DNA of 36,270 nucleotides from Flavobacteriaceae bacterium TMED48. Lineage in GTDB: Bacteria; Pseudomonadota; Gammaproteobacteria; Pseudomonadales; Porticoccaceae. Below the pieces are notes generated by a model that did no database searches, was not told where the DNA came from, and saw nothing but the letters and a program-made list of their open reading frames with translations. Of this stretch, positions 18,314 through 36,270 are shown piece after piece (the first letter of the stretch is position 1; each line of letters opens with the position of its first letter). The translations under genes were made by a program, and so were the position numbers. The stretch lies in contig CAJIZO010000077.1 of NCBI GenBank assembly GCA_905181995.1, positions 1 to 36,270 of the forward strand, in the 5' to 3' direction.

Positions 18314-19612
18314 CTAGCGGGCTCCTGTGCCGTTGTGGTAGGGGCAGTGGCCGCCGTCGACATGGCGTACAAAGTCGTCATAAAAATATTTCATTGCGCT
18401 CTGCAATGGCTCCATTGCCCCGGGCGCCAAGGCGCAGTGGGTATTGCCAATGGCGCCGATGTACTTCACTTGGTAAGCGAGTGTTTCTAGGTCCTCGCTG
18501 CGGCCAGCGCCGTTTTCGATGTCTTCGAGAACTTGCCGCGACCACGGCAATCCATCGCGGCACGGGGTGCAAAAGCCGCAGGATTCTTGAGCGAAAAACC
18601 GAATTAGGTTCAGTACCATGCCAACGGGGCAGGTGCGGTCGTCGAGTATGATCATGGTGCCGGTACCCATGCGGCTACCAGCCGCACCAATCACGTTGTA
18701 ATCCATCGCCAGATCGAGGTGTTCTGGAACCAAGAAATCGGTTGAACCACCGCCCGGCAAAAAGCCTTTCAGCTGGAATCCTGCGCGCATGCCGCCGGCG
18801 TGTTGGTCGATAATCTCGCGAATTGGCGTGCCCATGGGCAGTTCCCAACAGCCCGGATTGTTGACTTTGCCGCTAACCCCAAACAGTTTGGTGCCGCTGT
18901 CTTCGCCGACGCCGAGGGTTTTGAACCAGTCTGCACCACGATCGATAATGTGTGGAATGTTGCACAGCGTCTCGACGTTGTTGACGATGGTGGGCCGACC
19001 CCAGAGCCCACTTACCTGCGGAAAGGGAGGTTTAGCCCTGGGGTTGGCTCGCTTGCCCTCGAGCGCGTTGATCAGCGCGGTTTCCTCTCCGCAGATATAG
19101 CGCCCAGCGCTGGGATGGACGTGCATTTGCAGGTTGAAGTCCGAGCCGAGAATACGCTCGCCGAGGTAGCCGCTGGCGTAGCATTCAGCGATCGCATCGC
19201 GCAGTCGCTGGATCGCCACCAGATACTCTCCGCGGATAAAAATGTAGGCAATATCGGCACCGATGGTGTAGGCGGCGAGTATCATGCCCTCGATCAGTTG
19301 GTGCGGGTCGCACTCCATCAACAGGCGGTCTTTAAAAGTACCCGGTTCCATTTCATCGGCGTTGCAGACCAAGTACTTGTGGCCGGGTGTGCAGGCGTCT
19401 CCCCTCGGGACAAAGCTCCATTTCATGCCGGTTGGAAAGCCGGCACCGCCGCGACCGCGCAGGTTGGAATTTTTTACCACCGCCTGACAGTCGTCGGCCG
19501 ACATCTCGGTGAGCGCTTTGCGCAGTCCGCGATAGCCGTGGTTGGCCTGATACGCCGCCAAATTTGTGGGGCAGCGTTCGGGGCCTATATTGCGCGTTAA
19601 AACAGGTTCCAT
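18314..19612 (-). CDS. nuoF: NADH-quinone oxidoreductase subunit F
   Basis: NLRGRGGAGFPTGMKWSF, GAYICGEETAL-type motif, ESCGFCTPCRDG. Confidence 0.97.
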   Translation of the reverse strand: MEPVLTRNIGPERCPTNLAAYQANHGYRGLRKALTEMSADDCQAVVKNSNLRGRGGAGFPTGMKWSFVPRGDACTPGHKYLVCNADEMEPGTFKDRLLMECDPHQLIEGMILAAYTIGADIAYIFIRGEYLVAIQRLRDAIAECYASGYLGERILGSDFNLQMHVHPSAGRYICGEETALINALEGKRANPRAKPPFPQVSGLWGRPTIVNNVETLCNIPHIIDRGADWFKTLGVGEDSGTKLFGVSGKVNNPGCWELPMGTPIREIIDQHAGGMRAGFQLKGFLPGGGSTDFLVPEHLDLAMDYNVIGAAGSRMGTGTMIILDDRTCPVGMVLNLIRFFAQESCGFCTPCRDGLPWSRQVLEDIENGAGRSEDLETLAYQVKYIGAIGNTHCALAPGAMEPLQSAMKYFYDDFVRHVDGGHCPYHNGTGAR

Positions 19613-20127
19613 CAGTCTGTCCGCGCTTCGTTGTGAGCGCCGAATAACAGTTCGATGCGGGCGTCGTCGAGGTCGGTTATCAATTCGTCACCGATCATCA
19701 TCACCGGCGCGCGGTCGCAGGCACCGAGGCAGGGGACCGGTAGCAAGGTGTAGCGGTTATCGGTGGTAGTTTCGCCGTAATCGATCTGCAAATGTTGCGA
19801 GATTTTGGCTTTAATGCCATCGCAATCGGAGATCCAACAGCTCACGCTGTCGCAAAACAAAATGACTTTTTCGCCGACTGGGCGGCGGTAGATTAAATTG
19901 TAAAAAGTCGCGATGCCCTCGAGTTGTTCAGCCGACATATCTAGGTGTCTGGCGATTGCCATCAGGCAGTCATCTGACACCCAACCGCGCCGTGCTTGGA
20001 CGATTTTAAGCGCGTCGATGGCAGCGCCAGATTTGTACGGAACATGGCTGAGTTCTGCATCGATGGCGTGAATTTCCTCGTGGCTAAGGACGGAGTTTAG
20101 ATCGGTTTGAATGGGCTGCTGGGTCAT
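19612..20127 (-). CDS. nuoE: NADH-quinone oxidoreductase subunit E
   Basis: FCDSVSCWI and [10 protein letters not shown] 2Fe-2S motifs; [13 protein letters not shown]. Confidence 0.95.
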
Positions 20128-21875
20128 CGGTCAACGTCCGCCATAACAAAGTCAATACTGGCAATAATAGCGATTAGATCGGGGATCATAAGGCCGCGAC
20201 TAATCAGTGGAATTTGCTGCAAATGTGGGAACGACGGCGTGCGAATACGGGTGCGGTACGAGTTGGTGCCGCCGTCGCTGATCAGGTGATAGCTATTGAT
20301 TCCCTTGGTCGCCTCGATCATCACCGAGGCCTCGCCCGCGGGAATTACTGGCCCCCAACTGACGTTTAAAAAATGATGTATCAGGGTTTCGATATCCTCC
20401 ATGGTGCGCTCTTTGGGCGGCGGTGTGGTCGCTGCGTGCGCGCTCTTATAAGGGCCAGAAGGCATGTTGTCGACGCATTGGCGAATGATTTTTAAGCTCT
20501 GGCGGATTTCTTCGATGCGCAGTTCGGCGCGCTCATAGCAGTCGCCGTTGTTGGAGGTCGGCACCTCGAAGTCAAATTGATCATAGCCGCCATAAGGGCG
20601 TTTTTTACGCACGTCCCAATCGTTACCCGTGGCGCGTAATCCCGGTCCGGTAATGCCCCAATCCAGCGCCTCGCGCTCGGTGTAGACGCCGATACCGACG
20701 GTTCGATCCTTGAGTATTTTGTTTTGCATGGCCATCTTGTCGTAGTGGTCGAGCCGCGCCGGCATGCCGTCGATAAACTCGCGCACCATGTGCTGCCAAC
20801 CGTTGGGCAGATCTTGGCTAACGCCGCCAATCCGGAACCACGCCGGGTGCATGCGCCCGCCAGTGATGGCCTCGATGATGCCAAACAGACGTTCGCGATC
20901 GGCAAACATATAAAACACTGGTGACATCTGGCCGACGTCCTGCACAAAAGTACCGTAGAACACCAGGTGACTGGCGATGCGAAATAATTCAGCGAGCATG
21001 ATGCGGATGATTTTGGCTCGCTCTGGAACTTCGATCCCGGCGAGAATTTCGACCGATTGGATATACGCGAGATTGTTCATCACGCCGCCTAGATAATCGA
21101 TGCGATCGGTGTAGGGGATATAGGTATGCCAGGTTTGGCGTTCGGCCATCTTTTCGGCACCGCGGTGGTGATAGCCGATGTCCGGCACCGAATCGACGAT
21201 CACTTCGCCGTCGAGTTGCAGGGCAATGCGGAACACACCGTGAACGCTCGGATGGTTGGGGCCTAGGTTGAGGAACATGTATTCGTGATCCTCCGTTGCG
21301 GTTTGCATGCCCCACTCCTCTGGCCTGAAGCGCAGGGCTTCCTGTTCCCGAGCGACCCGTTCGGGGCCCATTTCAAAGGGCGCCATTTCTGTGGCGCGGG
21401 CGGGGTGGTCCTTGCGCAGCGCGTGACCTTCCCAGGTCGGCGGTAACAAAATACGGTACAGGTTGGGATGACCCTCAAAGGTGATGCCAAACATGTCCCA
21501 GGCCTCGCGCTCATACCAGTTGGCGTTGGGCCAAATAGCGATGCTGGTCGGCAGGTTGAGGTCGCTCTCGGCGAGGCCGATTTTAATCCGCAGATCTTCG
21601 TTGCGGCGCATCGACAGCAGTTGATAGACGACGGTGAAATCTGCCGCAGGTTGCCCAGCGCGATGCTCGCGGGTGCGCTCGTCAATGGCAAACAGATCGT
21701 AGAGCATGCAGAAATGGGGTCGTAAAAACGTCAGTACAGCGGTTAGATTATCGCGACTAATCCACAGGGTGCGCACGCCGTCGGCGCAGGGTTGATCGAC
21801 AAATAGCGCCTCTCCGAATTCTCGGTAGAGGCGTTCTTCAACTGTACTTGCGGCTCGCGTTGCGGCTGCTTGCAT
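20124..21875 (-). CDS. nuoCD: NADH-quinone oxidoreductase subunits C and D, fused
   Basis: NuoC-like N-terminal part ([26 protein letters not shown]) continuous with NuoD part ([23 protein letters not shown]). Confidence 0.96.
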
Positions 21876-21904
21876 GTCGACCTCGGCGTTATGGAGAAAA
21901 ATAT

Positions 21905-22540
21905 CTAGCTGTCTTTTGGTTCCCTTAATTCTGTCGCTTGGATACGCTGCGCGGTGAGTTCATCGCGCTTGCTTATTTTTGTTGGTTTAACGATCCTCTG
22001 ATCACCCGCAGCCCAACTGATCGGGCGGCGCTCTTTGCCGATCGATTCCTGCAGCATAATCAGCCCCTGCATCAGCGCCTCTGGACGCGGAGGACAACCG
22101 GGAACGTAGACGTCTACGGGGATAAATTTGTCGACCCCTTGGACCACCGAATAGATATCGTACATACCGCCAGAATTGGCGCACGAACCCATGGAAATAA
22201 TCCAGCGAGGCTCTAACAACTGGTCGTAGAGGCGTTGCACTACCGGTGCCATTTTTAGGAAGCAGGTGCCGGAGATAACCATTAAATCGGCTTGGCGGGG
22301 GGTGGCGCGGATGACCTCTGAACCGAACCGAGCGATGTCGTGGCGGCTGGTAAACGAGGTCGCCATTTCGACGTAACAACAGGATAGGCCAAAATTAAAC
22401 GGCCATAGCGAGTGGGCCCGCCCCCAGGCGACCAAGTCTTCGAGTTTGGCAAAGGCGACGTTGCGCTTGACCTGCTCCTCAACGGCGTCCATATTCAGCA
22501 TGTCGTTGTCGTCACCGGGGCGACTTAGGCTCCATTTCAT
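21905..22540 (-). CDS. nuoB: NADH-quinone oxidoreductase subunit B
   Basis: [59 protein letters not shown]; start [11 protein letters not shown] at 22540. Confidence 0.96.
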
Positions 22541-22992
22541 CGATCGGCTCCCCCTGCATTGCGTGCGTCGGCTTGCGCCTTGCGCAAGCCGATACGCTCT
22601 TTGTTGCCCCAGTCGAGACCGCCGCAGCGCCACTCGTAGACGAGCGCCAGCGTCAGCACAGCGATAAATACCAACATCGAAAAATAGCCTTGCCAGCCAA
22701 GTTCAAAAAAGGCCACCGCCCAAGCAAAGATGAATACTGTCTCGAGATCGAAGATCACAAAGAAGATGGCGACCAGATAAAATTCCACCGAGATGCGGAT
22801 TTGAGAATTGCCAACCGACACAATGCCGGATTCAAATGGCTCGTTGGTGGCATCTTCGCGGCGGCGCTGACCGAGCAGCCACGACAGCACCAACATGGTG
22901 ATGACCAACAAAATTACCATCAGGGTATAGACCGCGAGGGGCCAAATTTCAGTGCTTGAGGTCGCCACTACACCACCTCGCCACGGTTGCAT
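22537..22992 (-). CDS. nuoA: NADH-quinone oxidoreductase subunit A
   Basis: [40 protein letters not shown]; start taken as 22992 (22971 GTG region also possible). Confidence 0.93.
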
Positions 22993-23074
22993 CGGGCGGG
23001 CGCTGAGCGAGCATCCACTGCAGTTGACCAACCGCTGCTGGGCAGTCGGTTTTTGTTGCGTAAAAATACCCTTC

Positions 23075-23094
23075 GACTCCCCATTTGGGGTGTC
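23075..23094. promoter_or_regulatory. Palindrome upstream of nuoA
   Basis: GACTCCCCA-TT-TGGGGTGTC, 8/9 bp arms, about 80 bp upstream of the nuoA start; a TATAAG hexamer lies just upstream on the minus strand. Confidence 0.5.
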
Positions 23095-23433
23095 TTATAG
23101 ATCCCTCTTAGCGGCATAAACACCTCTAATTAATTGACTGACTACAGGGCATAAGCCGCTTTATTAATAGATCAGTAATTACAAACTTCTTTCTTTTATA
23201 TTCTTTTTATTTATATTAAGTATTCGCCTTGAAAATATAAGGTAGCGAACTTCAACGCCTTTGGCAAGCGATTGTTAGCCATTATTTTGCAAATAGAGGT
23301 CTCTTTAAAGTCGTTGATGAGGGGCCAGACAAGCCCCTTGTTTGGCCCATTTGGATGGAATTTTTGTCCAATATGGACGTGAATAGCCATCGCGAGTTAT
23401 TTGATATGCCGTCCATGGCTATCGTCTTGGACG

Positions 23434-23464
23434 GCTAAAATGCCCGTGCTGTCGGGGTTTTAGC
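23434..23464. other. Hairpin in the gap between TIGR02444-type gene and nuoA
   Basis: GCTAAAA-TG-CCCG-TGCTGT-CGGG-G-TTTTAGC. Confidence 0.6.
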
Positions 23465-23583
23465 GTCGCTAAGATGGGGCCAAGCGTTTCAAGAGCGGTT
23501 GCTTCGCCGGGCCCAATTCATGGCTGTCTTGATCTACTCATTAGCGGGTATCGGCTGGCGGTGTTACAGCGGCTTCGAGGGTT

Positions 23584-24123
23584 TTATGAGCGCCCGTCGG
23601 TTTGATTTGGCGCGCCGGTCTCGAGGTTCATGGCGTGGATTAAAGTATCGATATCGGCAACGTCGAATCGGTGGCCGAGGGTTTGGTTGTAAATTTCAAG
23701 GTTGGATCGACACGCCTCGATGATATTGTCGGTGTGGTCGCCGGGCAGCGATGGCTGAGTGGATTCAAACAGGCGTTGCAGTTGCAATTTTTCGGCATCT
23801 AATTCGAGTTTTTTGAGAAGCTGCCGAAGCCTCTCCGCAGCCGTTTGAGTCGGCATTGACTGGCTGTTTTTAAGGCCCCGTCGCAACGCGCGCAGCGGCT
23901 TTATTATCCGTTCACGCCAATCCTGAGTGGTGCTCGTGATGCGCTCAATTTCGGTGTCGTCAAGTCGTCTTTTGAGACTCGCCAACCACAGCAAATACAA
24001 TATAATAGTTACATCTGCATGGCATCGATCCTGCAAGTTTAGGCAACGTTCAGCGACCTCTGGGCGGGCGTAGAGCGCGAGACAAAATAACCATAGCGGC
24101 GAGTCGGAACTATCTGGCATCAT
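23584..24123 (-). CDS. TIGR02444 family (DUF2390) protein
   Basis: SPLWLFCLALYARPEVAERCLNLQDRCHADVTIILYLLWLASLKRRL typical of this family. Confidence 0.8.
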   Translation of the reverse strand: MMPDSSDSPLWLFCLALYARPEVAERCLNLQDRCHADVTIILYLLWLASLKRRLDDTEIERITSTTQDWRERIIKPLRALRRGLKNSQSMPTQTAAERLRQLLKKLELDAEKLQLQRLFESTQPSLPGDHTDNIIEACRSNLEIYNQTLGHRFDVADIDTLIHAMNLETGAPNQTDGRS

Positions 24124-24174
24124 GCGATCATCGGAACCTCAAGTGTTCCATCACTATAGCAAGTTGTCATCTGT

Positions 24175-25407
24175 ATGCCCAAAGCAGCCCAACCACTAGC
24201 GCGACAGACGTTGCAAACGTCGGTGATGTTTATGGTTTTTTTGGGTGCTATGTCGGCGCTGGCGCCGCTGTCTGTGGACGCCTACCTTCCGGTTCTCGGT
24301 CAACTGGCGGAACATTTTAAGGTCGATCTTGCGGCGGTTAATCTCACCATCAGTGCCTACTTGATTGGCAATGCTCTGGGGCAATTTTTCGGTGGTGCAC
24401 TGTCCGATCAATTAGGCCGCAAACCGGTGGGTAGCTTCGCATTGTTGATCTTTTCCGCAGCGACCCTAGCGATCATATTGGCACCGACTATCTATGCGGT
24501 GCAGGGCCTGCGCGTCTTGCAAGCGCTGGGCGGGGGCGCCCTACTGGTGGTGTGCATGGCGCAGGTGCGCGACCTATACCCAGTCGAGGAGGTTCCCCGG
24601 CGTTTGGCCTCGGTTATTTTGGTGATGATGGTGGCACCGATGGTGGCACCGCTGCTGGGGTTATGGTTGTCGGCTTGGGGTTGGCAAATGATCTTCGTTT
24701 TTTTGGCGCTCTACGGTTTGCTCTGCTGGTATATCTTTACCTTTAAGATTCCTGAATTAATGCTCAAACCGCCAACTGGCGTCAACTTCGTGTCGCTGTT
24801 TGTCAATTACTGGGGGGTTCTCAAGCAGCGTCAAAATGGACGGCTCAGCGCGCTTTTATACAACATTTTCAGCGCTTTAACCGGCGCGGTTTACTTTGTC
24901 TATCTCACCAATGCCGCGCTGATTTTTGATCGTATTTTTGGTCTCTCGGCGCTGGCGTTTTGTTGGGTTTTTGCCGCCGGCGGTCTGAGCATGTTGCTGG
25001 GCAATTTTTTTGCTGCCCATCGGATGAAAACCACCTCGCCGATGGCGCTCATGGGGGAGGGCAACCTATTGCAACTGTCAGCGACTCTATTGTTGTTTGC
25101 AGTTGCGATATTTGAAGTAGCCGAGGTGTATTCGGTGGTCGTTCTGATCTGCCTGTGTCTATTTGCTGGCGGCGCGGTTAGGCCGACCGCCGCCGGCGTT
25201 TACATGACATTTTTTGATCACAACAGCGGTGCGGCGGCGTCTATACAGGCGACCCTGTTGTTTATGCTCGGCGCGCTAGTGGGCGCGCTGTCTGCGGTGC
25301 TATCGGCGGGGACGCTGATGCCGATTTTCGCCATTATGTTGCTCTGCAGCGCGGCGGCTCGCGGCGTTTTTATGGCGATTCGACGCGCTGCGATCGATGC
25401 CTCATAA
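24175..25407 (+). CDS. Bcr/CflA family MFS drug efflux transporter
   Basis: PLSVDAYLPVLGQLAEHF, GQFFGGALSDQLGRKPV, 12-TM-like hydrophobic pattern. Confidence 0.88.
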   Translation: MPKAAQPLARQTLQTSVMFMVFLGAMSALAPLSVDAYLPVLGQLAEHFKVDLAAVNLTISAYLIGNALGQFFGGALSDQLGRKPVGSFALLIFSAATLAIILAPTIYAVQGLRVLQALGGGALLVVCMAQVRDLYPVEEVPRRLASVILVMMVAPMVAPLLGLWLSAWGWQMIFVFLALYGLLCWYIFTFKIPELMLKPPTGVNFVSLFVNYWGVLKQRQNGRLSALLYNIFSALTGAVYFVYLTNAALIFDRIFGLSALAFCWVFAAGGLSMLLGNFFAAHRMKTTSPMALMGEGNLLQLSATLLLFAVAIFEVAEVYSVVVLICLCLFAGGAVRPTAAGVYMTFFDHNSGAAASIQATLLFMLGALVGALSAVLSAGTLMPIFAIMLLCSAAARGVFMAIRRAAIDAS

Positions 25408-25742
25408 AGCCCTCGTGGTGGCGTGATTGGGGTTCTAAAACAACCGTGGGATGATGGTTTTTCGCGCGGTTGCGGCCCCTGATCTTCACCGCACAAGGTG
25501 GCGATGCGAGCCATAAAACAATGGTTCCAATGACCATGCTGACCACTACCGATCGTTTTACGATTGACCAATTGAGATATTCTGGTGGCCCAATATTCAT
25601 AACGAGCGTGACGAAATAAGATTTGTTTTCCGCAGGCCACGAATACACCGATTACGGTATATCGGTAAAGACTAGTTTGCAATCTTAAGCCTGGACAGGA
25701 TTGATTGGTGCCAATTAAATTTTCCCGTTTAATATAACGATA

Positions 25743-26591
25743 TTACTCGTAAAGAGAATCAGAATTTTCAACTAGTTCCAAAAGCACTCGGTTACTGTTT
25801 TCGTCTGTTGGTAGCGCAAACTCCATCTGCATTTCCTGCAAAGTTATGTTCAATGGTCCTCCCATGGTCGCCACCATCGTAAAAAGGCTAAGTTCCAGTT
25901 CATTTTTTTTTAAATGCAGTGGCATGACCAGCTGAGGTATATCTTCATCAAGGGCTTTGGGATTTTTAGGGCGGTACTGAAGAACTTCATTCAAAAGGTT
26001 CTTATTTTCAGCATCGCTACCCATAATATTTACAAAGCGTCTGGCTCGATTCAGCATTGTCGAGTAAATATCATTAAAGTTTTGTATAGAACGTCCCACA
26101 CAATCTGGGTCTAAAAAAATGCGCAACAAATTTAACGGTTTTTTATCCAACAGACGTGGGTCATGCACAAACGCGATACACATCCGTTTAAAGGCGGTGT
26201 TCGATTCAATGATATTCCAGTGTCGGTCAATCAGGGTGCTTGGGTAGTGATTATATTTATGGACCATAATCGACAACATCTTTCTGATTTGTTTCATTTC
26301 CTGATCGCTTAATCCGGTCTCCTCAAATAACGGCGCATAGCCAGCCGATATTAGCAAGGTGTTTCGTGAGCGCAGCGGGACGTGCAAAACTCGCGCCAAA
26401 TCTAGCAGAAGTTCTCGGGTCGGGTGGGCTTTACCGGTTTCCAAAAAGCTAAGGTGGCGCGATGAAGAATTACATTCGAGCGCCAACTCCAATTGACTAA
26501 TATGGCTGCGGGTACGCCAGAGCTTCAGCTGTTCGCCAATGCTTTTTTGCTCGACGCCTCTTTGCTGTGCAAGATCCCTATCGCTCTTCAT
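25743..26591 (-). CDS. XRE-family regulator with MmyB-like ligand-binding domain
   Basis: N-terminal HTH (RTRSHISQLELALECNSSSRHLSFLETGKAHPTRELLLDLARVLHVPLRSRN) followed by MmyB-like domain (YPSTLIDRHWNIIESN). Confidence 0.85.
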   Translation of the reverse strand: MKSDRDLAQQRGVEQKSIGEQLKLWRTRSHISQLELALECNSSSRHLSFLETGKAHPTRELLLDLARVLHVPLRSRNTLLISAGYAPLFEETGLSDQEMKQIRKMLSIMVHKYNHYPSTLIDRHWNIIESNTAFKRMCIAFVHDPRLLDKKPLNLLRIFLDPDCVGRSIQNFNDIYSTMLNRARRFVNIMGSDAENKNLLNEVLQYRPKNPKALDEDIPQLVMPLHLKKNELELSLFTMVATMGGPLNITLQEMQMEFALPTDENSNRVLLELVENSDSLYE

Positions 26592-26635
26592 AAAGAATTT
26601 TTGAGCAATAATTCATAATTGTACTACCCTCGATT

Positions 26636-26649
26636 TTACCGTTTGGTAA
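26636..26649. promoter_or_regulatory. 14-bp inverted repeat TTACC-GTTT-GGTAA between divergent XRE regulator and dehalogenase-like gene
   Basis: Perfect 5-bp arms in a 131-bp divergent intergenic region. Confidence 0.45.
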
Positions 26650-26722
26650 TTGTCAGGACTGCGAGAACGAATAATACTCTCTATCACAACCTTTAGTCTC
26701 TAGTAAATATCGGAGTGCAGCA

Positions 26723-28132
26723 ATGACTAGTAAGAGAGAGTTCGGATCAACAATAACAGAACACGCTGATGTTCAGTGGCGAAAAGCACACGAACACGCG
26801 ACCACATTGCCGGCCGCCGATTTTCCGTACGAATATAAGTTTGTCGAGATCGATGGCAACAGGATTGCCTACATCGAAAAAGGTGAAGGCGACCCGATTC
26901 TATTTATACATGGCGCGCCAACCTCATCGTATTTGTGGCGGAACATCTTGCCCTGGATGAGCGATCGAGGTAGATGTATCTCGATGGATTTAATCGGTTT
27001 CGGGCAATCAGATAAACCAAAAGATCATTTTGGATACTTTATTCACACTGACTATGTAAGAAAATTTATTGAAGCGCTGGATTTAAAAAACATAACATTG
27101 GTATTGCACGATTGGGGGTTTAACTACGGCATGGAGTACACCGTCGACCACCCTGAAAATGTTAAAGGTGTTTGTTATGGGGAAGCCCTTATGAGCCCGC
27201 GCTATCCGATAGATGATACCGAAAGCTACGGTAAAGAATGTCCCGGCGTGTTGAACATGTATCGGACCATGCAGTCGGAGGCCGGCCACGACATTGCAGT
27301 CACACAAAACCTGTTTGTAGAGCGGGTAATGCCAGAGCATATATATAGAAAGATGACCCAGGCAGAAATGATGCACTACCGCCAGCCATTTTTTAATGTG
27401 GAGGACCGGGGCCCGATTCTGCAAATGCCACGCGATGTCCCGCTTGATGGTGAGCCTGCGGATATTAGAGCTTCATACACTAAATACAACGATTGGTTTG
27501 AATCAGACAACAAGACGGTACCGACTCTCCACGTTTATGCCACTCCCGGTGCGGTCAATACAACAGAAGACGCCGCCTGGATGTGCAACAATATTCGAAA
27601 TCACGAAAGCGCCTGGATCGGGACCGGCATTCACTATATTCAGGAAGACAATCCAGAAGGTTGGGGGCGTGCCCTAAGGGATTGGCATCGGCGAATAGAC
27701 CATAGCCTGCCCGGGTCGAGTGCCATGAGCGCGGGCGGGCTGTCCGAATTCGTACAGAATAACATTTACGCAAACTTTGAAGCGGGTAATATAGAAGGTG
27801 TACTGGCCAACTTTCACCCCGACATAAAATTCACGCACCATGGGCCAAGAGATCAGATTCCATTCGCTGGAGAATGGAATGGCATTGAAGGCGCGGGCCA
27901 AATGCTACTAACATTTGCAGAAACTGTGGAACCCGTGTTTGTCAATGTAAAAGACATCACGGCCTCAGGAAACAAAGTTATTGTTTCCATCAATGAAAGT
28001 TACAAAGTTAAGGCGACAGGTAAGGTCTATGTTACCGACGTTGCGCATATATGGACAATCGAGGGAGAAACGGTCGTTCAATTTGATGAGCTTTACGATT
28101 CCGCAGCGATTGCAAATGCGTTCTTACCTTAA
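26723..28132 (+). CDS. Haloalkane dehalogenase-like alpha/beta hydrolase fused to a C-terminal NTF2/SnoaL-like domain
   Basis: HGAPTSSYLWRNILP, LHDWGFNYGMEY (D130/W131), CYGEA (E154), GIHYIQED (H304) align with LinB/DhaA-type motifs; about 130 further residues (SEFVQNNIYANFEAGNIEGVLANFHPDIKFTHHGP...) look NTF2/SnoaL-like. Confidence 0.85.
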   Translation: MTSKREFGSTITEHADVQWRKAHEHATTLPAADFPYEYKFVEIDGNRIAYIEKGEGDPILFIHGAPTSSYLWRNILPWMSDRGRCISMDLIGFGQSDKPKDHFGYFIHTDYVRKFIEALDLKNITLVLHDWGFNYGMEYTVDHPENVKGVCYGEALMSPRYPIDDTESYGKECPGVLNMYRTMQSEAGHDIAVTQNLFVERVMPEHIYRKMTQAEMMHYRQPFFNVEDRGPILQMPRDVPLDGEPADIRASYTKYNDWFESDNKTVPTLHVYATPGAVNTTEDAAWMCNNIRNHESAWIGTGIHYIQEDNPEGWGRALRDWHRRIDHSLPGSSAMSAGGLSEFVQNNIYANFEAGNIEGVLANFHPDIKFTHHGPRDQIPFAGEWNGIEGAGQMLLTFAETVEPVFVNVKDITASGNKVIVSINESYKVKATGKVYVTDVAHIWTIEGETVVQFDELYDSAAIANAFLP

Positions 28133-28229
28133 TGCATGCAGAGCATCGTTGGCGGAGATAAAAATAATTTCCTTTAGCCTATATTCAATGTTCCTCGGCC
28201 CGAATTCGGCCTTGGTCGCCCAGTAGCGG

Positions 28230-28432
28230 GAAGAGGTGCTAGTGACAGCGCAGAATCATTACAACACGCGCCGGTATCTGTCGCGGTCACGGTGGGCGAA
28301 ACCATTGAAAAACAGGTGTTGCGAAATTCGCAAGATGTTTCCGCGCGAATGCCCAACGTGAAAATAACCAAGGGTCCTGACGAAGACCAACTATTTATGT
28401 ACTTGCAGAACGCCCTCGTTCTCGGGGCTTAA
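28230..28432 (+). pseudogene. Frameshifted fragment of a TonB-dependent receptor plug domain
   Basis: Frame at 28230: EEVLVTAQ; after a frame change, frame at 28253: ESLQHAPVSVAVTVGETIEKQVLRNSQDVSARMPNVKITKGPDEDQLFMYLQNALVLGA*. Matches TBDR start pattern EEVVVTAxxRxESLQxVPVSVT...LQDLSARxPNV. Confidence 0.75.
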
Positions 28433-28560
28433 GGCAACCTAGACGGTGGAGACGCTTACTCCGGCCCTTGCAGTATTGATCAAAACCTGATTCAGAGGCC
28501 GTTACGGGGAACAAAACATCACCAAACCCCGGTAAAGCTTATTTTTGGAGGAATAGAATC

Positions 28561-29514
28561 ATGAAAGCTATATATTACCAACAACATGGCGACGTTGACG
28601 TACTACAATATGGAGAACTGCCAACTCCTGAGCCAAACGCGGATCAGGTGCTGGTTAAAATAGCTGCCGCGGCGGTAAATCCTATCGATCGCCGATTGCG
28701 CTCTGGTGAATTACAGGGGTATATTGGCCGTACGTTTCCTGTCGTCCCCGGGTGGGACTTTTCCGGAACCATCGTCAAAATCGGATCGAATGTAACGAAC
28801 TGGAAAGTCGGCGACGAGGTCGTTGGGTTGGCATTTACATGGTCGATCCAACATGGAACCTACGCGGAATATTGCCCCGTCGACGCGTCAGCCATCGCTC
28901 TCAAACCGCCGAGCCTCAGTTTCGTCGAAGCAGCTTCTTTACCTCTGGTCAGTTTGACTGCGTGGCAAGCCCTCGACGAATTCGCGGGTCTAAAACAAGG
29001 CCAGACGGTCCTGATTCAAGCCGGCGCAGGTGGTGTGGGTAGCGTGGCTATACCCATAGCAAAATATTTGGGCGCAAAAGTTTACACGACGACGCGAAGC
29101 GAAAACTTTAACTATGTCTTGGATCGTGGAGCGGACCATCCAATTGACTACACAACGCATGACTATGTGGAGGTGATAAAAGAAATGGAACCCGATGGTC
29201 TGGACGTTGTTCTTGAATCCTTGTACGGCGACAAAATTGTAGAAGATGCGATTCACCTGACCAAAAATGGTGGCGCAGTGCCCTATCTGAACAATGAGCC
29301 TCCGGAGCTGGCCGACATCGCTTCTCGGCGGATTAAAGCAGCGTTCATCCATCACCGACCTGATGGCGAAATGCTCGCTATGCTTATGTCACTGTTTGCG
29401 GGTGCTGACTTGCCCGCTCCACGGGTTACGACGATGAATTTGAGCGATGCACAAAAAGCGCACGAACAATCAGAAAGTATGACAACCAATGGAAAATTGG
29501 TCTTGCAAGTGTAA
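28561..29514 (+). CDS. Quinone oxidoreductase-like zinc-independent alcohol dehydrogenase (MDR superfamily)
   Basis: VKIAAAAVNPIDRRLRSG, VPGWDFSGTIV, VLIQAGAGGVGSVAIPIAKYLGAKVYTT; RBS GGAGG upstream. Confidence 0.88.
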   Translation: MKAIYYQQHGDVDVLQYGELPTPEPNADQVLVKIAAAAVNPIDRRLRSGELQGYIGRTFPVVPGWDFSGTIVKIGSNVTNWKVGDEVVGLAFTWSIQHGTYAEYCPVDASAIALKPPSLSFVEAASLPLVSLTAWQALDEFAGLKQGQTVLIQAGAGGVGSVAIPIAKYLGAKVYTTTRSENFNYVLDRGADHPIDYTTHDYVEVIKEMEPDGLDVVLESLYGDKIVEDAIHLTKNGGAVPYLNNEPPELADIASRRIKAAFIHHRPDGEMLAMLMSLFAGADLPAPRVTTMNLSDAQKAHEQSESMTTNGKLVLQV

Positions 29515-29759
29515 GGCCTTTGACATCACTGCAGCCTTTGTTTCAACACTCCGCTCTCAATAGAGAATCGCAACAGTGACGCGGTCTAGCAGCGTCGAGT
29601 GAGCAATAGGCAAATATAGAAAAATTGCTTACCCAGATTGGCAGCGGTGGAATTAAACTCAGCAGCTTCATTTAAGCGTGGCGCTATTAAGTCATTATAC
29701 CGCTATTGCCAATAACACTAATAAGCGTGAGTTGCTTCCGAGTCGTTTTTAACTGGGGG

Positions 29760-30122
29760 ATGACAGAACACGAAAACATCTGGGCTTTGGGCCTGTATAT
29801 AGGTGCAACTAGCTTTGGTATTTTTGTCGCTCTCTATTTATATAACTTCGGTCTTTTGGGGATCAAGGTCAGTATTTTAGCTAGCACAAAAGAGAGGATA
29901 AACAGCGAGTTTGTATTACATGTAATTTTTGGGGTCATGCTTCTTGCAGCCAGACAAGTTCGATTGTTAGGGTTCGACTTTGCACCTTACATAGCCGCAT
30001 TGATTGCAGGTGGCTATATGGCATATCTGCTATACAAATTCCCTACTGATGAGTACTTAACAATAAAAAGAATAATGACTAAGGCAGCCTTCGACAGGGT
30101 CATCCATGCACCTAACCGCTGA
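29760..30122 (+). CDS. Small membrane protein ORF, C-terminus reading into a disrupted regulator
   Basis: ATG at 29760 preceded by GGGG-rich RBS; hydrophobic segments; last 15 residues (MTKAAFDRVIHAPNR) belong to the relic described separately. Confidence 0.45.
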   Translation: MTEHENIWALGLYIGATSFGIFVALYLYNFGLLGIKVSILASTKERINSEFVLHVIFGVMLLAARQVRLLGFDFAPYIAALIAGGYMAYLLYKFPTDEYLTIKRIMTKAAFDRVIHAPNR

Positions 30123-30284
30123 CAAATATGCGCTCTGTTGGAAACCACAAATGAGTTGGAGTTTCAGATTGTTAAAGAACAACTCGAGGTAAGTGATTCA
30201 GTACCAACCAAACATTTAAAGGTATTGAAAGATAAAAAATACAAAATTTATATTTTAAATAATTTTTTTAGCGGTTTGTTATGA
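30075..30284 (+). pseudogene. Winged-helix (HTH_34/PF13601-like) transcriptional regulator interrupted by an in-frame TGA
   Basis: MTKAAFDRVIHAPNR-*(30120-30122)-QICALLETTNELEFQIVKEQLEVSDSVPTKHLKVLKDKKYK..., same frame on both sides of the stop. Confidence 0.7.
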
Positions 30285-30326
30285 CCCTTAAGTCGGTTGG
30301 GTTTAACCAACGCGCTATCCATTAAC

Positions 30327-30361
30327 TGCAGAATCTGCATGCTCACTGCAAGATTTGAATA
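30327..30361 (+). promoter_or_regulatory. Candidate AraC-type operator upstream of the FMO operon (copy 1)
   Basis: TGCAGAATCTGCATGCTCACTGCAAGATTTGAATA; 30/35 identical to 35858-35892 without gaps. Confidence 0.65.
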
Positions 30362-30480
30362 TCTGCCGTGCGACTAAAAATATTGAATAACCGTCATAGG
30401 AGTAAGTGATCATCTTTTGGGAGCAGCATAGGTATGGGGTTATTGGGTCGTCTTCACAGTGGGTTGCTCAGGTAGCGGCT

Positions 30481-31977
30481 ATGGGTGATATCAAAAAACT
30501 GTGCATTATTGGTGCTGGATTTGCCGGATTGACCGCCGCAAGGGTGTTTAAAGCCCTAAATTATGGCATCACAGTCTACGAAAAAGATGCGCAGGTCGGC
30601 GGCGTGTGGGCGGCGTCGCGGCGCTATCCAGGTGTTACTACGCAAAATCCTCGAACCACCTACGAGCTGTCGGATTTCCCGATGCCGGCAGACTATCCCG
30701 AATGGCCAAGCGGCGAGCAGGTTCAAGCCTATATGCAGGATTATGCGCTGCATTTTAATGTCTTACCGCAGATCCATTTAAATACTGAGGTGACTCGAGC
30801 GGTTTATGACTCGCCATCGCAAAGCTGGGAGGTTAAAACTGTCCGTACTACCGCCGACGGCCAAATAAAACATAGCACTCAGCAGTTTGACTATCTCATC
30901 GTTGGCAACGGCATTTTTTCGATTCCATCGGTGCCTCATTTCCCTGGTGAAGAGGTTTTTTTGGCCGCGGGTGGCCGCGTTTGCCACACCAGTCAATTTA
31001 ATCACCGTGAAGAAGCTACCGACCGGCATATGCTCGTGGTGGGGTATGGCAAATCATCTTGCGACGTGGCCGGTGCGATCGCGCCGATTGCCGCCAGTAC
31101 CCGAGTGATAGCGCGAAATTTAATCTGGAAGATACCTAAATTTATAGCCAATAAAATTAATCATAAGCACCTATTTTTATCGCGCATGAGCGAGGCGCTG
31201 TTCCGCTATATTCGATTGCAAGGTATGGATCGATTTTTTCATACGGTCGGTAACCCGATAAGAAAAGGCCTATTAAAAAGCCTGGAGTATGTCATTGAAA
31301 AACAGTTAGGCTTGCGCCGTCTTGGCCTACACCCTGACAAGCCCCTTGAAACTATTGCCCGCAGCACCGTGAGCCTGGTCACCGATGGCTTTTACGAGGC
31401 CGTTGAGCGCGGTGACATTGTGCTGCATAAACGCAGTGAAATTGTTGAGTTGATGGCGGGCAATGCACGATTATCCTCCGGAGAAGTAGTGCCTGCCGAC
31501 ATTATTGTGTGCGGCACGGGATGGCATCAACGTTGCGCGTTTCTCGACCCGGACGTTCTGAGCAAGGTCACGGATGAGCAGGGCAACTTCAGACTGTATC
31601 GCTCAATCCTCCCTGTCGATATGCCGAGACTCGCTTTTAATGGTTACAACTCTTCATTTTTTAGTCAACTCAATTGCGAGGTGGCCGCCCTTTGGCTCGC
31701 GGACTACCTCAACGGCGGATTTTCGCTACCGAGCAATCAGCAGCAGAATAGCGACATCGATGCGCGGTTAGCCTGGATGGAAGCGCGCACCGATGGCAAG
31801 CACTCGAAAGGCACCAATATCATCCCATTTTCGATTCACAATATCGATGAACTATTGGGCGATATGAATATGAACGTCGGCCGTTTTCGGCAATTTTTAC
31901 AATGGATTGGGGCACTGCAGCCGAAAAGTTATGGCTACTTGCTACCGCAATTACAAAAAAAGTACACCGATAAATAA
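30481..31977 (+). CDS. Flavin-containing monooxygenase-like FAD/NAD(P)-dependent oxidoreductase
   Basis: MGDIKKLCIIGAGFAGLTAARVFKALNYGITVYEKDAQVGGVW, second Rossmann VVGYGKSSCDVAGA. GTG at 30406 behind AGGAG is an alternative start. Confidence 0.85.
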   Translation: MGDIKKLCIIGAGFAGLTAARVFKALNYGITVYEKDAQVGGVWAASRRYPGVTTQNPRTTYELSDFPMPADYPEWPSGEQVQAYMQDYALHFNVLPQIHLNTEVTRAVYDSPSQSWEVKTVRTTADGQIKHSTQQFDYLIVGNGIFSIPSVPHFPGEEVFLAAGGRVCHTSQFNHREEATDRHMLVVGYGKSSCDVAGAIAPIAASTRVIARNLIWKIPKFIANKINHKHLFLSRMSEALFRYIRLQGMDRFFHTVGNPIRKGLLKSLEYVIEKQLGLRRLGLHPDKPLETIARSTVSLVTDGFYEAVERGDIVLHKRSEIVELMAGNARLSSGEVVPADIIVCGTGWHQRCAFLDPDVLSKVTDEQGNFRLYRSILPVDMPRLAFNGYNSSFFSQLNCEVAALWLADYLNGGFSLPSNQQQNSDIDARLAWMEARTDGKHSKGTNIIPFSIHNIDELLGDMNMNVGRFRQFLQWIGALQPKSYGYLLPQLQKKYTDK

Positions 31978-31992
31978 CCGAGGGATCGGCTA

Positions 31993-33582
31993 GTGGCGCA
32001 GCGTTATGATTATGTCATCGTCGGCAGCGGCATTAACTCACTTTGCTGCGCGGCGTTGTTGGCGAAAAAAGGCCACCAAGTGTGTGTGCTCGAGCGAAAC
32101 GACTATCTCGGTGGCTGTATTGTGACCGCCGAAATTACGCTGCCGGGTTTTAAACACGATGTACTCTCTGGATTTCATCCGTTATTCGTTACCTCGCCTA
32201 ACTACGCCGAGCTAGCAGACGACCTCGCACGACATGGTTTGGAATACCTCAACAGCAACAAACCCACAGCGTCGGTGACGTCCAGTCAACAAGCCTGCGT
32301 GTTGACAACGTGCAGAGAAACCAATGTGCGCGCCTTCAATTTGCTCGCCAGTGGCGATGGCGATCGGTATGCAAAAACCATGCGCGAAATGGAGGGCGAT
32401 GCCGAGTTTACGTTTGGGGTGCTGGGCGGCGAGTTGATGCGGGTAAATATGTTGTGGCTGTTAATCAAGCAATTTCGACAGCGAAAACTCACCGGGATAA
32501 TCGATTTTCTGGGTGACGCCATGCTGTCGAGCAGAGATTGGTTGTCACAAAGATTTCACTCACCCGCCATTCAAGCGCTATTAGCACCGTGGATATTGCA
32601 CACCGGACTCGGTCCCGAAGCGAATTTTTCTGGCGCGATGAACCGACTGATTGCCTTTAGCTTGGAGTCTGCCGGCATGCCGATTGTCAAAGGCGGCAGT
32701 GATAAGCTGGTGCAGGCTTTCGTTGGCCTGATCGAAGAGTGCGGGGGCGTCTTGACGACCGAGGCACATGTGTCGCAAATACTTGTAGAATCGGGCGTTG
32801 CAACCGGTGTGGTGGTCGCCGGTCAAGAGTCCATTTACGCAACTCGCGCAGTGATCTGTAATGTCACGCCTAACCAGCTATACGACAGCTTGCTCGACCG
32901 GCAATGGGTGCCCGACAACATCTTGCAACAGGCTGCCGGCTATCGTTATGGGCGCGCCGGCATGCAAATACATTTGGCGCTAAAGGGCCGGCCGGAGTGG
33001 CTTGAGAAAAGCTTGAATGATGTCGCCATGGTGCACATTAGCGATGGTATCGACAGCGTTTCTAAGGCGGTAAATCAGGCCGAGCGTGGCTTGTTGCCAG
33101 AACAGGCGACGATTGTCGTCGCCCAACCGACGGTGATCGATCCGAGTCGCGCGCCTCAAGGACATTCAATCCTGTGGATTCAACTACAGGAGTTGCCCAG
33201 CGTGATTTTGGGGGACGCCGCTGGCACTATCCAAATACCCGACGGTGGCGTTTGGAATCACCAGGTCAGGGAGGCCTATGCAGACCGTATTATCGATAGA
33301 ATCGGCGAGTATATACCGGGATTGAAGTCCGCAATTTTGCACCAAGAAGTACTTTCGCCAGCCGATTTACAGGCGATGAATATCAACCTCGTCGGTGGCG
33401 ATCCCTATTCGGGGCACTGCGGTATGCAGCAATTTTTCTTTTGGCGGCCGCTTAAATCGCTTAGTAACCACACCACCACGGTTGAAAAACTCTATCACAT
33501 CGGCGCCTCCAGCCATCCGGGTCCGGGGCTGGGCGGCGGTTCAGGCTACATGGTGGCGAAACACTTGATGGGATCTGCATAG
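31993..33582 (+). CDS. Phytoene dehydrogenase/PYROXD2-like FAD-dependent oxidoreductase
   Basis: GTG start; YDYVIVGSGINSLCCAALLAKKGHQVCVLERNDYLGGC; C-terminal GASSHPGPGLGGGSGYMVAKHL. Confidence 0.87.
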   Translation: MAQRYDYVIVGSGINSLCCAALLAKKGHQVCVLERNDYLGGCIVTAEITLPGFKHDVLSGFHPLFVTSPNYAELADDLARHGLEYLNSNKPTASVTSSQQACVLTTCRETNVRAFNLLASGDGDRYAKTMREMEGDAEFTFGVLGGELMRVNMLWLLIKQFRQRKLTGIIDFLGDAMLSSRDWLSQRFHSPAIQALLAPWILHTGLGPEANFSGAMNRLIAFSLESAGMPIVKGGSDKLVQAFVGLIEECGGVLTTEAHVSQILVESGVATGVVVAGQESIYATRAVICNVTPNQLYDSLLDRQWVPDNILQQAAGYRYGRAGMQIHLALKGRPEWLEKSLNDVAMVHISDGIDSVSKAVNQAERGLLPEQATIVVAQPTVIDPSRAPQGHSILWIQLQELPSVILGDAAGTIQIPDGGVWNHQVREAYADRIIDRIGEYIPGLKSAILHQEVLSPADLQAMNINLVGGDPYSGHCGMQQFFFWRPLKSLSNHTTTVEKLYHIGASSHPGPGLGGGSGYMVAKHLMGSA

Positions 33583-33620
33583 TTACCACAACAGTAATCA
33601 CAAACAATGAGGGAAATGAT

Positions 33621-34415
33621 ATGGGAAATCTAACCAACAAGGTGGCAATCATTACCGGGGGAGCGGCCTCCATCGGTCGCGATATCAGCAGAGAATTACA
33701 CGCGCAGGGCGCGCGCGTGGTGATTGCCGCCCGAACGGCGGAAAAAGGCAACCGGTTAGCCGATGAACTGGGTGCAGGCGCGCTCTACGTGCAAACCGAT
33801 ATCACCGACGATGCGCAGTTAGAAAACCTGATTGCGCGCGCTGTCAATGAGTTTGGCGGTCTTGATATTGTGGTGAATAATGCCTGTTCCTACGATGACG
33901 ATGGTGCTCAAACAGATCGACAGACTTGGCTCTCAACGATCAACACTTCAGCGATTTCCGCGGCAATATTGGGTGAAATGGCGCGCCCCTATCTAGCCAA
34001 AAATAAAGGCTGTATCGTCAATATTGGGTCCGTATCAGGCGCTTTTCCGCATATTGGTCGGTGGGCCTATCCGGTCGCTAAGGCGACGCTTAGGCACCTG
34101 AGTAAAACCCAGGCAGTCGAATATGCCGCTGACAACATTCGCGTCAATATGGCGGTTCTCGGGCATATATGGTCGGATCCATTTGAAGGCCTTACTCAGG
34201 ATAATCGCGCTCATGCAGATGCAGTGTCATCACCGTTAAACCTGATGGGGCGGGTCGCAAACGGAAGCGAAGTAGCCAGTGTGGCTGCGTTCTTAGCCTC
34301 AGATGCGGCCTCTTATATGACCGGAGCCGAGGTGGCTGTGGATGGCGGATACAGTGCCATGGGGCCCGAGGGTCACGAGCCGTTGATGCCGCAATTGATG
34401 AGCTTAGCCGAGTAG
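33621..34415 (+). CDS. SDR family oxidoreductase
   Basis: TGGAASIGR cofactor motif, VVNNACS, catalytic YPVAK, C-terminal YMTGAEVAVDGGYSAMG. Confidence 0.9.
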   Translation: MGNLTNKVAIITGGAASIGRDISRELHAQGARVVIAARTAEKGNRLADELGAGALYVQTDITDDAQLENLIARAVNEFGGLDIVVNNACSYDDDGAQTDRQTWLSTINTSAISAAILGEMARPYLAKNKGCIVNIGSVSGAFPHIGRWAYPVAKATLRHLSKTQAVEYAADNIRVNMAVLGHIWSDPFEGLTQDNRAHADAVSSPLNLMGRVANGSEVASVAAFLASDAASYMTGAEVAVDGGYSAMGPEGHEPLMPQLMSLAE

Positions 34416-34563
34416 CTAGCCACGTGCGGCAAGTCGCTTGAATAGCTCGCTAGGCCTGGGTCGACAGTGGCTCAGGCGAGGTTGTCGATTGGCTACTCGG
34501 CGCTAATCCAGACATCAAAAGTGCGGCCCGCGCGATCTAAAACTATGCCGGTAAGGTTGCCCG

Positions 34564-35556
34564 TTAGTCCATGAACCTCGCTTTAGTCGTCGATGGGAGC
34601 TCGCCATAAACGCTCTTATAATGCGCTGAAAATCGTCCTAGCTGACTGAAGCCATTGTTGAAGGCAATCTCTGTAACGCTCATATGTAGCGATTGAGCGG
34701 GGTCGAGCAATTGCAGTCTGGCATTCGCCAGTCGGTGCTTTTGTACAAATTGCATTGGGGTCATGTCGAGGCATTGCTTAAAACTATTGAACAGGCTGCG
34801 CTCGCTGACCTCGGTAATACGCACTAACTCCTCAACGGTGAGGTTTTCACTGGCGTGTTGTTTGATATATTCGATCGCGCGTCGCAGCGACTTAGGCAGC
34901 ACGGGGCGGTTGTCGAGCTTTAGTCTCGCGCTGTAATTGTTCTCCAATGTGTAGAGCAGGCCGCGGATAATATTGGACAGTGCGTTGTCGATCATTTCCG
35001 GGGTTTTGTAAAATCCATACGGCTGATTGCAGTCATTGATAAACCGCATCACATGTTGCCACCAAGATGCATGCTGGCGATTGCGATTTTCCATATACGG
35101 AGAAAACACCAAATCTTGCGTTGCTGGTCGGCCTAGGCAATTGTTCAGTACACCGTGAACCCTGCGTTTTGATAATTGCAGCATGAGCTGTTCGCAGCCA
35201 TCACCCCAGGTCATTTTTGTGTACACGCTGGGGTTGATGACGGTGGCTTTGCCAGGTTTCGACTCGATGGTTTGCTTGTCGGCATGCATGCTAGCTGAGC
35301 CTGTAATGGGTAGTTGTATTAAATAAAAATCCCTCAACAGGCCCGGCTCTATGTTGCTTTGTGGGCCGTATCCCATGTAGTTAAACGAGATGCCATCAAA
35401 CGGCATATGGTAGTGGAAGGCATCTAATTGCCCGCATTTTAGCGATAGGCGGTGCTCGCAGTAGACCTCGCTTACTTTCATGCGCGCGTATTCGATATCG
35501 GCGGTGCGAAATCGTTTAAATTGATTGTCGGCTAGCGCCACTGGGTATGAATTCAT
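34564..35556 (-). CDS. AraC-family transcriptional regulator
   Basis: C-terminal HTH_18: LTVEELVRITEVSERSLFNSFKQCLDMTPMQFVQKHRLANARLQLL...VTEIAFNNGFSQLGRFSAHYKSVYGELPS; N-terminal cupin-like sensing region. Confidence 0.92.
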   Translation of the reverse strand: MNSYPVALADNQFKRFRTADIEYARMKVSEVYCEHRLSLKCGQLDAFHYHMPFDGISFNYMGYGPQSNIEPGLLRDFYLIQLPITGSASMHADKQTIESKPGKATVINPSVYTKMTWGDGCEQLMLQLSKRRVHGVLNNCLGRPATQDLVFSPYMENRNRQHASWWQHVMRFINDCNQPYGFYKTPEMIDNALSNIIRGLLYTLENNYSARLKLDNRPVLPKSLRRAIEYIKQHASENLTVEELVRITEVSERSLFNSFKQCLDMTPMQFVQKHRLANARLQLLDPAQSLHMSVTEIAFNNGFSQLGRFSAHYKSVYGELPSTTKARFMD

Positions 35557-35857
35557 ACAAATCCCCCCAAACCCTTTATTTTATATTTAAAGTATTTTTC
35601 TAATTTATAGTGGTAAATGTTTATTTTGTCAAACACTATTTGCCGCACTGGCCGCAGATATGCGTCTCAATCGGGCGGAGGTTGAAAATCAATCTAATCG
35701 ATACGGGTCGACGGCTAAATATTGTTGAGTTAGTTCACGGTATCGGCTCTGTGGACGCCGTCGATGTTCGAGTTGATGACACCCCACCACCACTGTTGGT
35801 TGCATACTGATTAGCGTTTGACTAATTTAAAAATTTAATCAATCCGCTGTGATTAGA

Positions 35858-35892
35858 TGCAGAATATGAATGCTCCATGCACGATTTGAATA
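35858..35892 (+). promoter_or_regulatory. Candidate AraC-type operator upstream of the TonB-dependent receptor (copy 2)
   Basis: TGCAGAATATGAATGCTCCATGCACGATTTGAATA; 30/35 identical to 30327-30361. Confidence 0.65.
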
Positions 35893-35957
35893 GCCGTTAT
35901 GCCCTTATTGATATGCACTGATAATAAGAAATTTACTATCAGCGGAGATCCGTAATT

Positions 35958-36270
35958 ATGCACACTCAAATGGCCAATAGGCTGGACAGTTTGATGTCCG
36001 AAATAGTTTTAAGTTTGCGCTCAGCGTTGCATATATATTGTCGGGGGGCATTGTTAGTTGGCATTATGCTGGCGCTGTGCGCGCCAGTGGTATCGGCCGC
36101 CGATTTGGAAGAAATTGTGGTGACGGCGCGTAAAAAGGCCGAGAGTTTGCAGGACTCGCCGATTTCCATTACCGCACTGTCGGGCGATCGTCTGGAGGAT
36201 ATGGGTCTGACCCGGGTGACGCGGCTTCAGGATGTGACGCCCAATTTAGTCTTTCAAAACACCCCGACGT
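35958..36270 (+). CDS. TonB-dependent receptor, N-terminal part, truncated by the window edge
   Basis: Open frame from ATG 35958 to the edge: signal-like segment then AADLEEIVVTARKKAESLQDSPISITALSGDRLEDMGLTRVTRLQDVTPNLVFQNTPT. Not in ORF track because no stop is reached. Confidence 0.9.
   Translation, partial: MHTQMANRLDSLMSEIVLSLRSALHIYCRGALLVGIMLALCAPVVSAADLEEIVVTARKKAESLQDSPISITALSGDRLEDMGLTRVTRLQDVTPNLVFQNTPT

Follow-up and report, generated by a model that had tools for sequence, protein, structure and literature searches.

Introduction

Dehalogenases and epoxide hydrolases have their fold and nucleophile in common, and how one activity gave rise to the other is a long-standing question. 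In the HLD-II haloalkane dehalogenases (HLDs), the halide is stabilized by two residues, an Asn and a Trp or Tyr, and in DmxA, an active HLD, Gln replaces the Asn and one halide-stabilizing residue is possibly missing (PMC6920932). The alpha/beta epoxide hydrolases also use an Asp nucleophile, with two cap Tyr residues that open the epoxide (PMC6315908). Co-occurrence of alpha/beta hydrolase domains with SnoaL-like or DUF4440 domains in one polypeptide has already been reported; among the examples in the accessible part of that report the NTF2-like DUFs lie N-terminal to the hydrolase, and no HLD-II enzyme is named there (PMC3924330).

Here we describe a protein that combines the same two folds with the SnoaL domain at the C-terminus, encoded in a 36,270-nucleotide stretch of DNA (hereafter, the window). 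It is nearer overall to HLD-II enzymes (LinB, DhaA, DmmA, DmxA) than to alpha/beta epoxide hydrolases, having the HLD-II fold, ~38-41% identity, the Asp-His-Glu triad, the Trp of HDWG and the NF002938 match in common with the former, from which it differs by an Ala in place of the halide Asn, a Tyr at F151 and the extra C-terminal domain. With alpha/beta epoxide hydrolases (sEH, StEH1, EphA) it shares an Asp nucleophile in HDWG, an HGxP motif and a candidate cap Tyr, but it has the HLD-II-type Glu acid and a Pro/Ala at the second cap Tyr position. The tail resembles SnoaL_2/NTF2-like proteins (3fgy, 3ebt, TerC; fold TM 0.74-0.90). Unlike these proteins, the domain described here is joined to an HLD-like hydrolase or has one as its genomic neighbor. 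The folds of ketosteroid isomerase and limonene epoxide hydrolase are more distant from the tail, and the resemblance to the latter was seen at the level of the fold (TM ~0.75).

Results

A hydrolase and a SnoaL-like domain in one ORF

The first-pass annotation had proposed a haloalkane dehalogenase-like enzyme fused to an NTF2/SnoaL-like domain. The reading frame runs without interruption and is divided as follows:

26723..28132 (+): whole fused ORF (469 aa), an HLD-II-type alpha/beta hydrolase followed by a SnoaL_2/NTF2-like domain
26816..27703 (+): residues 32-327, forming the HLD-II-like alpha/beta hydrolase domain, from the NF002938 score and Foldseek
27704..27724 (+): linker, matching the stop codon and 22-bp gap of the homologue L007, from alignment and low-confidence model residues
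27725..28129 (+): SnoaL_2/NTF2-like domain from the internal ATG (M335), from Pfam, the model and alignment with L007

The ORF matches Pfam Abhydrolase_1 (E 3.6e-18), and residues 32-327 score 313.7 bits for the NCBIfam haloalkane dehalogenase family NF002938 (cut-off 241). PDB sequence matches to this front part are HLD-II enzymes (AncHLD5, 1.9e-80), and Foldseek aligns the hydrolase domain to DhaA/DmmA with TMt 0.93-0.95. Residues 349-452 match Pfam SnoaL_2 at 47.3 bits, above the gathering threshold of 27, and the PDB sequence matches to the tail are NTF2-like proteins (TerC at 3.6e-6, 3ebt and 3fgy). Modelled alone with AlphaFold2, the tail adopts an NTF2-like cone fold (mean pLDDT 95.2) with 3fgy as the closest PDB structure (TM 0.90). 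Together this confirms the proposed two-domain ORF, including the NTF2 fold whose absence from a structure prediction had been named as grounds for rejecting it. In the full-length model, low-confidence linker residues 329-333 separate both domains, and with a pTM of 0.69 their relative placement is not trustworthy. A chance ORF was ruled out, as both domains exceed curated cut-offs and have predicted folds, and a decaying read-through tail is not favored, since both halves are constrained (NG86 dN 0.14 and 0.20, with dS saturated).

Fused and separate forms

The closest homologue of the window protein, L007 from a Halieaceae MAG (78/72% identity), encodes the hydrolase and SnoaL in two ORFs that differ in frame and have 22 bp between them. 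The start codon of its SnoaL ORF is preceded by an AGGAG ribosome site and aligns with the internal ATG at M335 of the window ORF, which has no clear AGGAG upstream. At a further locus, L044, the stop and start of the pair overlap as ATGA. L039 and L040, divergent Halieaceae paralogues with only ~36% identity to the window protein, are fused in long clean ORFs of 468 and 454 aa. Because the SnoaL partner is separate in L007 and L044 and fused in the window, L039 and L040, the fused state either recurs or was gained and lost, and the SnoaL tree fits either one pairing event or two. From these comparisons the fused ORF is best read as derived from an operonic gene pair.

The linker bears on whether the window copy is truly fused. 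One T inserted after GACCAT would place a stop exactly at the L007 stop position, and the frame would be split by most indels of one base within the ~44-bp linker. As one base decides between the two states, an assembly error in the window copy is possible; the source genome is a MAG of 218 contigs that is 88% complete, and the closest homologue is split, with its own AGGAG. We nevertheless think it unlikely that the gene pair alone is real and that the fusion reflects a mistake in sequencing or assembly, or a frameshift at the level of the strain, with the proteins made separately. The lack of a clear AGGAG before the internal ATG argues against this, as do L039 and L040, whose fused ORFs in other genomes indicate that the fusion is viable in the clade.

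How common the architecture is

The first-pass annotation left the frequency of this arrangement open. The fusion architecture is real and rare: besides the window copy, fused or adjacent pairs were found in only two Halieaceae genomes among those sampled, at search thresholds of the 1e-60 to 1e-90 type, which divergent fusions could escape. With three genomes in that sample, a common architecture is not supported. The 112 genomes of the window's family contain only ordinary HLDs (37-42%), the plasmid search returned single-domain HLDs only, with no place covering 80% of the query, and the viral contigs searched gave no match. Literature searches did not find an HLD-SnoaL fusion, although there is a precedent in kind in the hydrolase and SnoaL-like combinations described in PMC3924330.

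A 450-aa frame with a SnoaL match (L089:928-2250, G165) was considered and rejected as the same architecture, as it joins a SnoaL-like domain to two CxxCH cytochrome c-like motifs; it adjoins an FAD-linked oxidase ORF. Separately, at L067:703-2376 (G562), an open frame of 558 aa ends, on its C-terminal side, in an HLD-like domain.

Active-site residues

The positions compared with HLDs are listed below. The LinB position numbers come from the alignment and from what we take to be the standard numbering of LinB.

26915..26917 (+): Ala65 of the HGAP motif, where LinB has its halide-binding Asn (N38), from alignment
27110..27115 (+): HDWG motif, with Asp130 in the nucleophile position and Trp131 in the halide-binding position that is retained
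27182..27184 (+): Glu154, HLD-II catalytic acid position
27260..27262 (+): Tyr180 in the cap, LinB F151 position, from alignment
27632..27634 (+): His304, catalytic base position (GIHYIQED)

D130, H304 and E154 align with the HLD catalytic triad, which is therefore kept. The halide pair is incomplete, with Trp131 present and Ala65 in place of Asn. We compared the active sites of 71 HLD-like sequences by alignment and tree, and the seven that bear Ala at the halide Asn position form one clade (support 100/98); of the other 64, 61 have Asn and two have Gln. All six clade members that cover the LinB F151 position have Tyr there, and the others have Phe (62/64), Leu (1) or a gap (1). The combination of Ala and Tyr occurs in none of the 64 other dehalogenase-like ORFs. 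Subclade 2 reads HGAPE, resembling the HG-x-PE of epoxide hydrolases.

Because the halide Asn is Ala in the protein and throughout its clade, classic dehalogenation is doubtful, and these substitutions suggest that the hydrolase has probably left it. Asn loss alone is no proof of this, given that DmxA is active with Gln. The label "haloalkane dehalogenase-like" therefore holds for the fold, the NF002938 score, the triad and the Trp, and is doubtful as a statement of function.

Two further loci of this clade were seen. The HGAP-clade hydrolase encoded at L064:1456-2607 appears to carry a signal peptide, and the 3-kb stretch examined contained no SnoaL partner. L006:3854-5462 carries two HGAP hydrolases in tandem, the second cut by the contig end.

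Inserted segment and regulator

The fused gene lies in a segment with a divergent regulator:

25521..30301 (no strand): segment missing from the syntenic congener G100, with the regulator, the fused gene and a quinone reductase
25743..26591 (-): divergent XRE-type regulator with an MLTR ligand-binding domain; L007 has a homologous gene in the equivalent position
26636..26649 (+): TTACCGTTTGGTAA, an inverted repeat between the divergent genes and a candidate operator

Its nuoF, 98% identical to that of G100, shows that the contig belongs to its genus and rules out a contaminant. The window is collinear with G100 at 15731-25520 and 30302-36270, and in place of the ~4.8-kb segment G100 has 1.6 kb of unrelated sequence, with no counterpart of the fused gene between its MFS and FMO genes. 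The absence of the segment from a collinear congener, together with a family that has only ordinary HLDs, fits a recent horizontal acquisition of the cassette. Within the segment the neighbors are the MLTR-type regulator and the quinone reductase, and outside it are FMO-like, CrtI-like and SDR genes. The segment also holds a 138-aa ORF with no Pfam match (29706-30122), and elsewhere in the window a 583-aa ORF in the nuo gene run (20124-21875) resembles a fused NuoC and NuoD.

At the place equivalent to TTACCGTTTGGTAA, L007 carries TTACCTTTCGGTAA, so that both have TTACC-N4-GGTAA in the gap separating the regulator from the hydrolase. When one mismatch is allowed, this pattern has a single match in the window, where 0.56 would be expected by chance. 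From this arrangement, the fused unit is probably under the control of the divergent MLTR regulator and its ligand.

Discussion

Our best explanation, held tentatively and at somewhat less than an even chance, is a fused pair gained horizontally, in which an HLD-II-derived hydrolase acts on a non-halide substrate with a SnoaL partner under MLTR control. In this proposal, having given up the halide site based on Asn and acquired a Tyr in the cap, the Asp-nucleophile hydrolase would most likely open a non-halide substrate, for example an epoxide, by way of an Asp-ester intermediate. The attack on the substrate would come from Asp130, His304 and Glu154 would activate water, and Tyr180 and Trp131 would stabilize the leaving oxygen. 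The SnoaL domain may then act on or hold the product or a hydrophobic substrate of the same pathway; the first-pass annotation had suggested that it could bind or convert the product or mediate oligomerization. The two-domain architecture, the history of pairing and fusion, the residue substitutions and the insertion are directly seen in the sequences, and the class of substrate, the regulation and the parts played by Tyr180 and the SnoaL domain are inferred from them.

Epoxide-hydrolase-like chemistry instead of dehalogenation is a reasonable but unproven proposal. The protein has both the Asp nucleophile (HDWG) and the HGxP motif (HGAP), and the paired changes of Asn to Ala and Phe to Tyr are confined, among the sequences compared, to one fully supported clade. 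Immediately upstream of L039 are a LysR gene and genes for a StyA-like monooxygenase and a flavin reductase, which may place an epoxide-forming enzyme beside it. Against this, the StyA-like matches, at 106 and 56 bits, fall far short of the 550 bits set by NCBIfam, no StyA-like gene occurs among the window's own neighbors, Trp131 and the HLD-II-type Glu are kept, and the second cap Tyr position is Pro or Ala in the clade. Tyr180 itself is a candidate cap Tyr from motif comparison by eye; a profile alignment with epoxide hydrolase left the cap unaligned. The fullest version, in which those two substitutions turned an HLD-II lineage to epoxide hydrolysis and an NTF2-fold product-processing enzyme was joined to it, giving a bifunctional two-step enzyme that marine gammaproteobacteria carry on a mobile catabolic cassette, we regard as rather improbable.

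It is unlikely, if not strongly so, that the hydrolase domain has remained a haloalkane dehalogenase whose reduced halide site uses Trp131 only or is assisted by Tyr180. The retained triad and Trp, the score above the NCBIfam cut-off and the precedent of DmxA all speak for it, but Ala, unlike Asn or Gln, is unable to donate a hydrogen bond to halide, and the loss is fixed across the whole clade together with F151Y. A catalytically silent SnoaL domain that binds a ligand or drives oligomerization, and so regulates the hydrolase, is an alternative to the role proposed above that we hold at somewhat less than an even chance. In its favor, NTF2-like domains are often non-catalytic ligand binders and have been put forward as regulators of attached hydrolases (PMC3924330); against it, intracellular members tend to be enzymes (PMC3924330), and in L007 and L044 the partner is a free-standing ORF. 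That a SnoaL protein is coupled to the hydrolase more than once suggests a partner that acts in sequence with it or regulates it.

As a natural group with a Tyr in the cap and without the halide Asn, this clade allows a direct test of conversion between dehalogenase and epoxide hydrolase, and it illustrates how a "haloalkane dehalogenase" annotation made by score only can mislead. The StyA-like monooxygenase and flavin reductase genes upstream of the LysR gene and L039 span L071:19297-20000 to L072:1-1487 (G112:C28), and downstream of L039 are MBL, DUF1302, RND, SDR, sulfatase, AMP-ligase and thiolase genes, which resemble a catabolic cluster.
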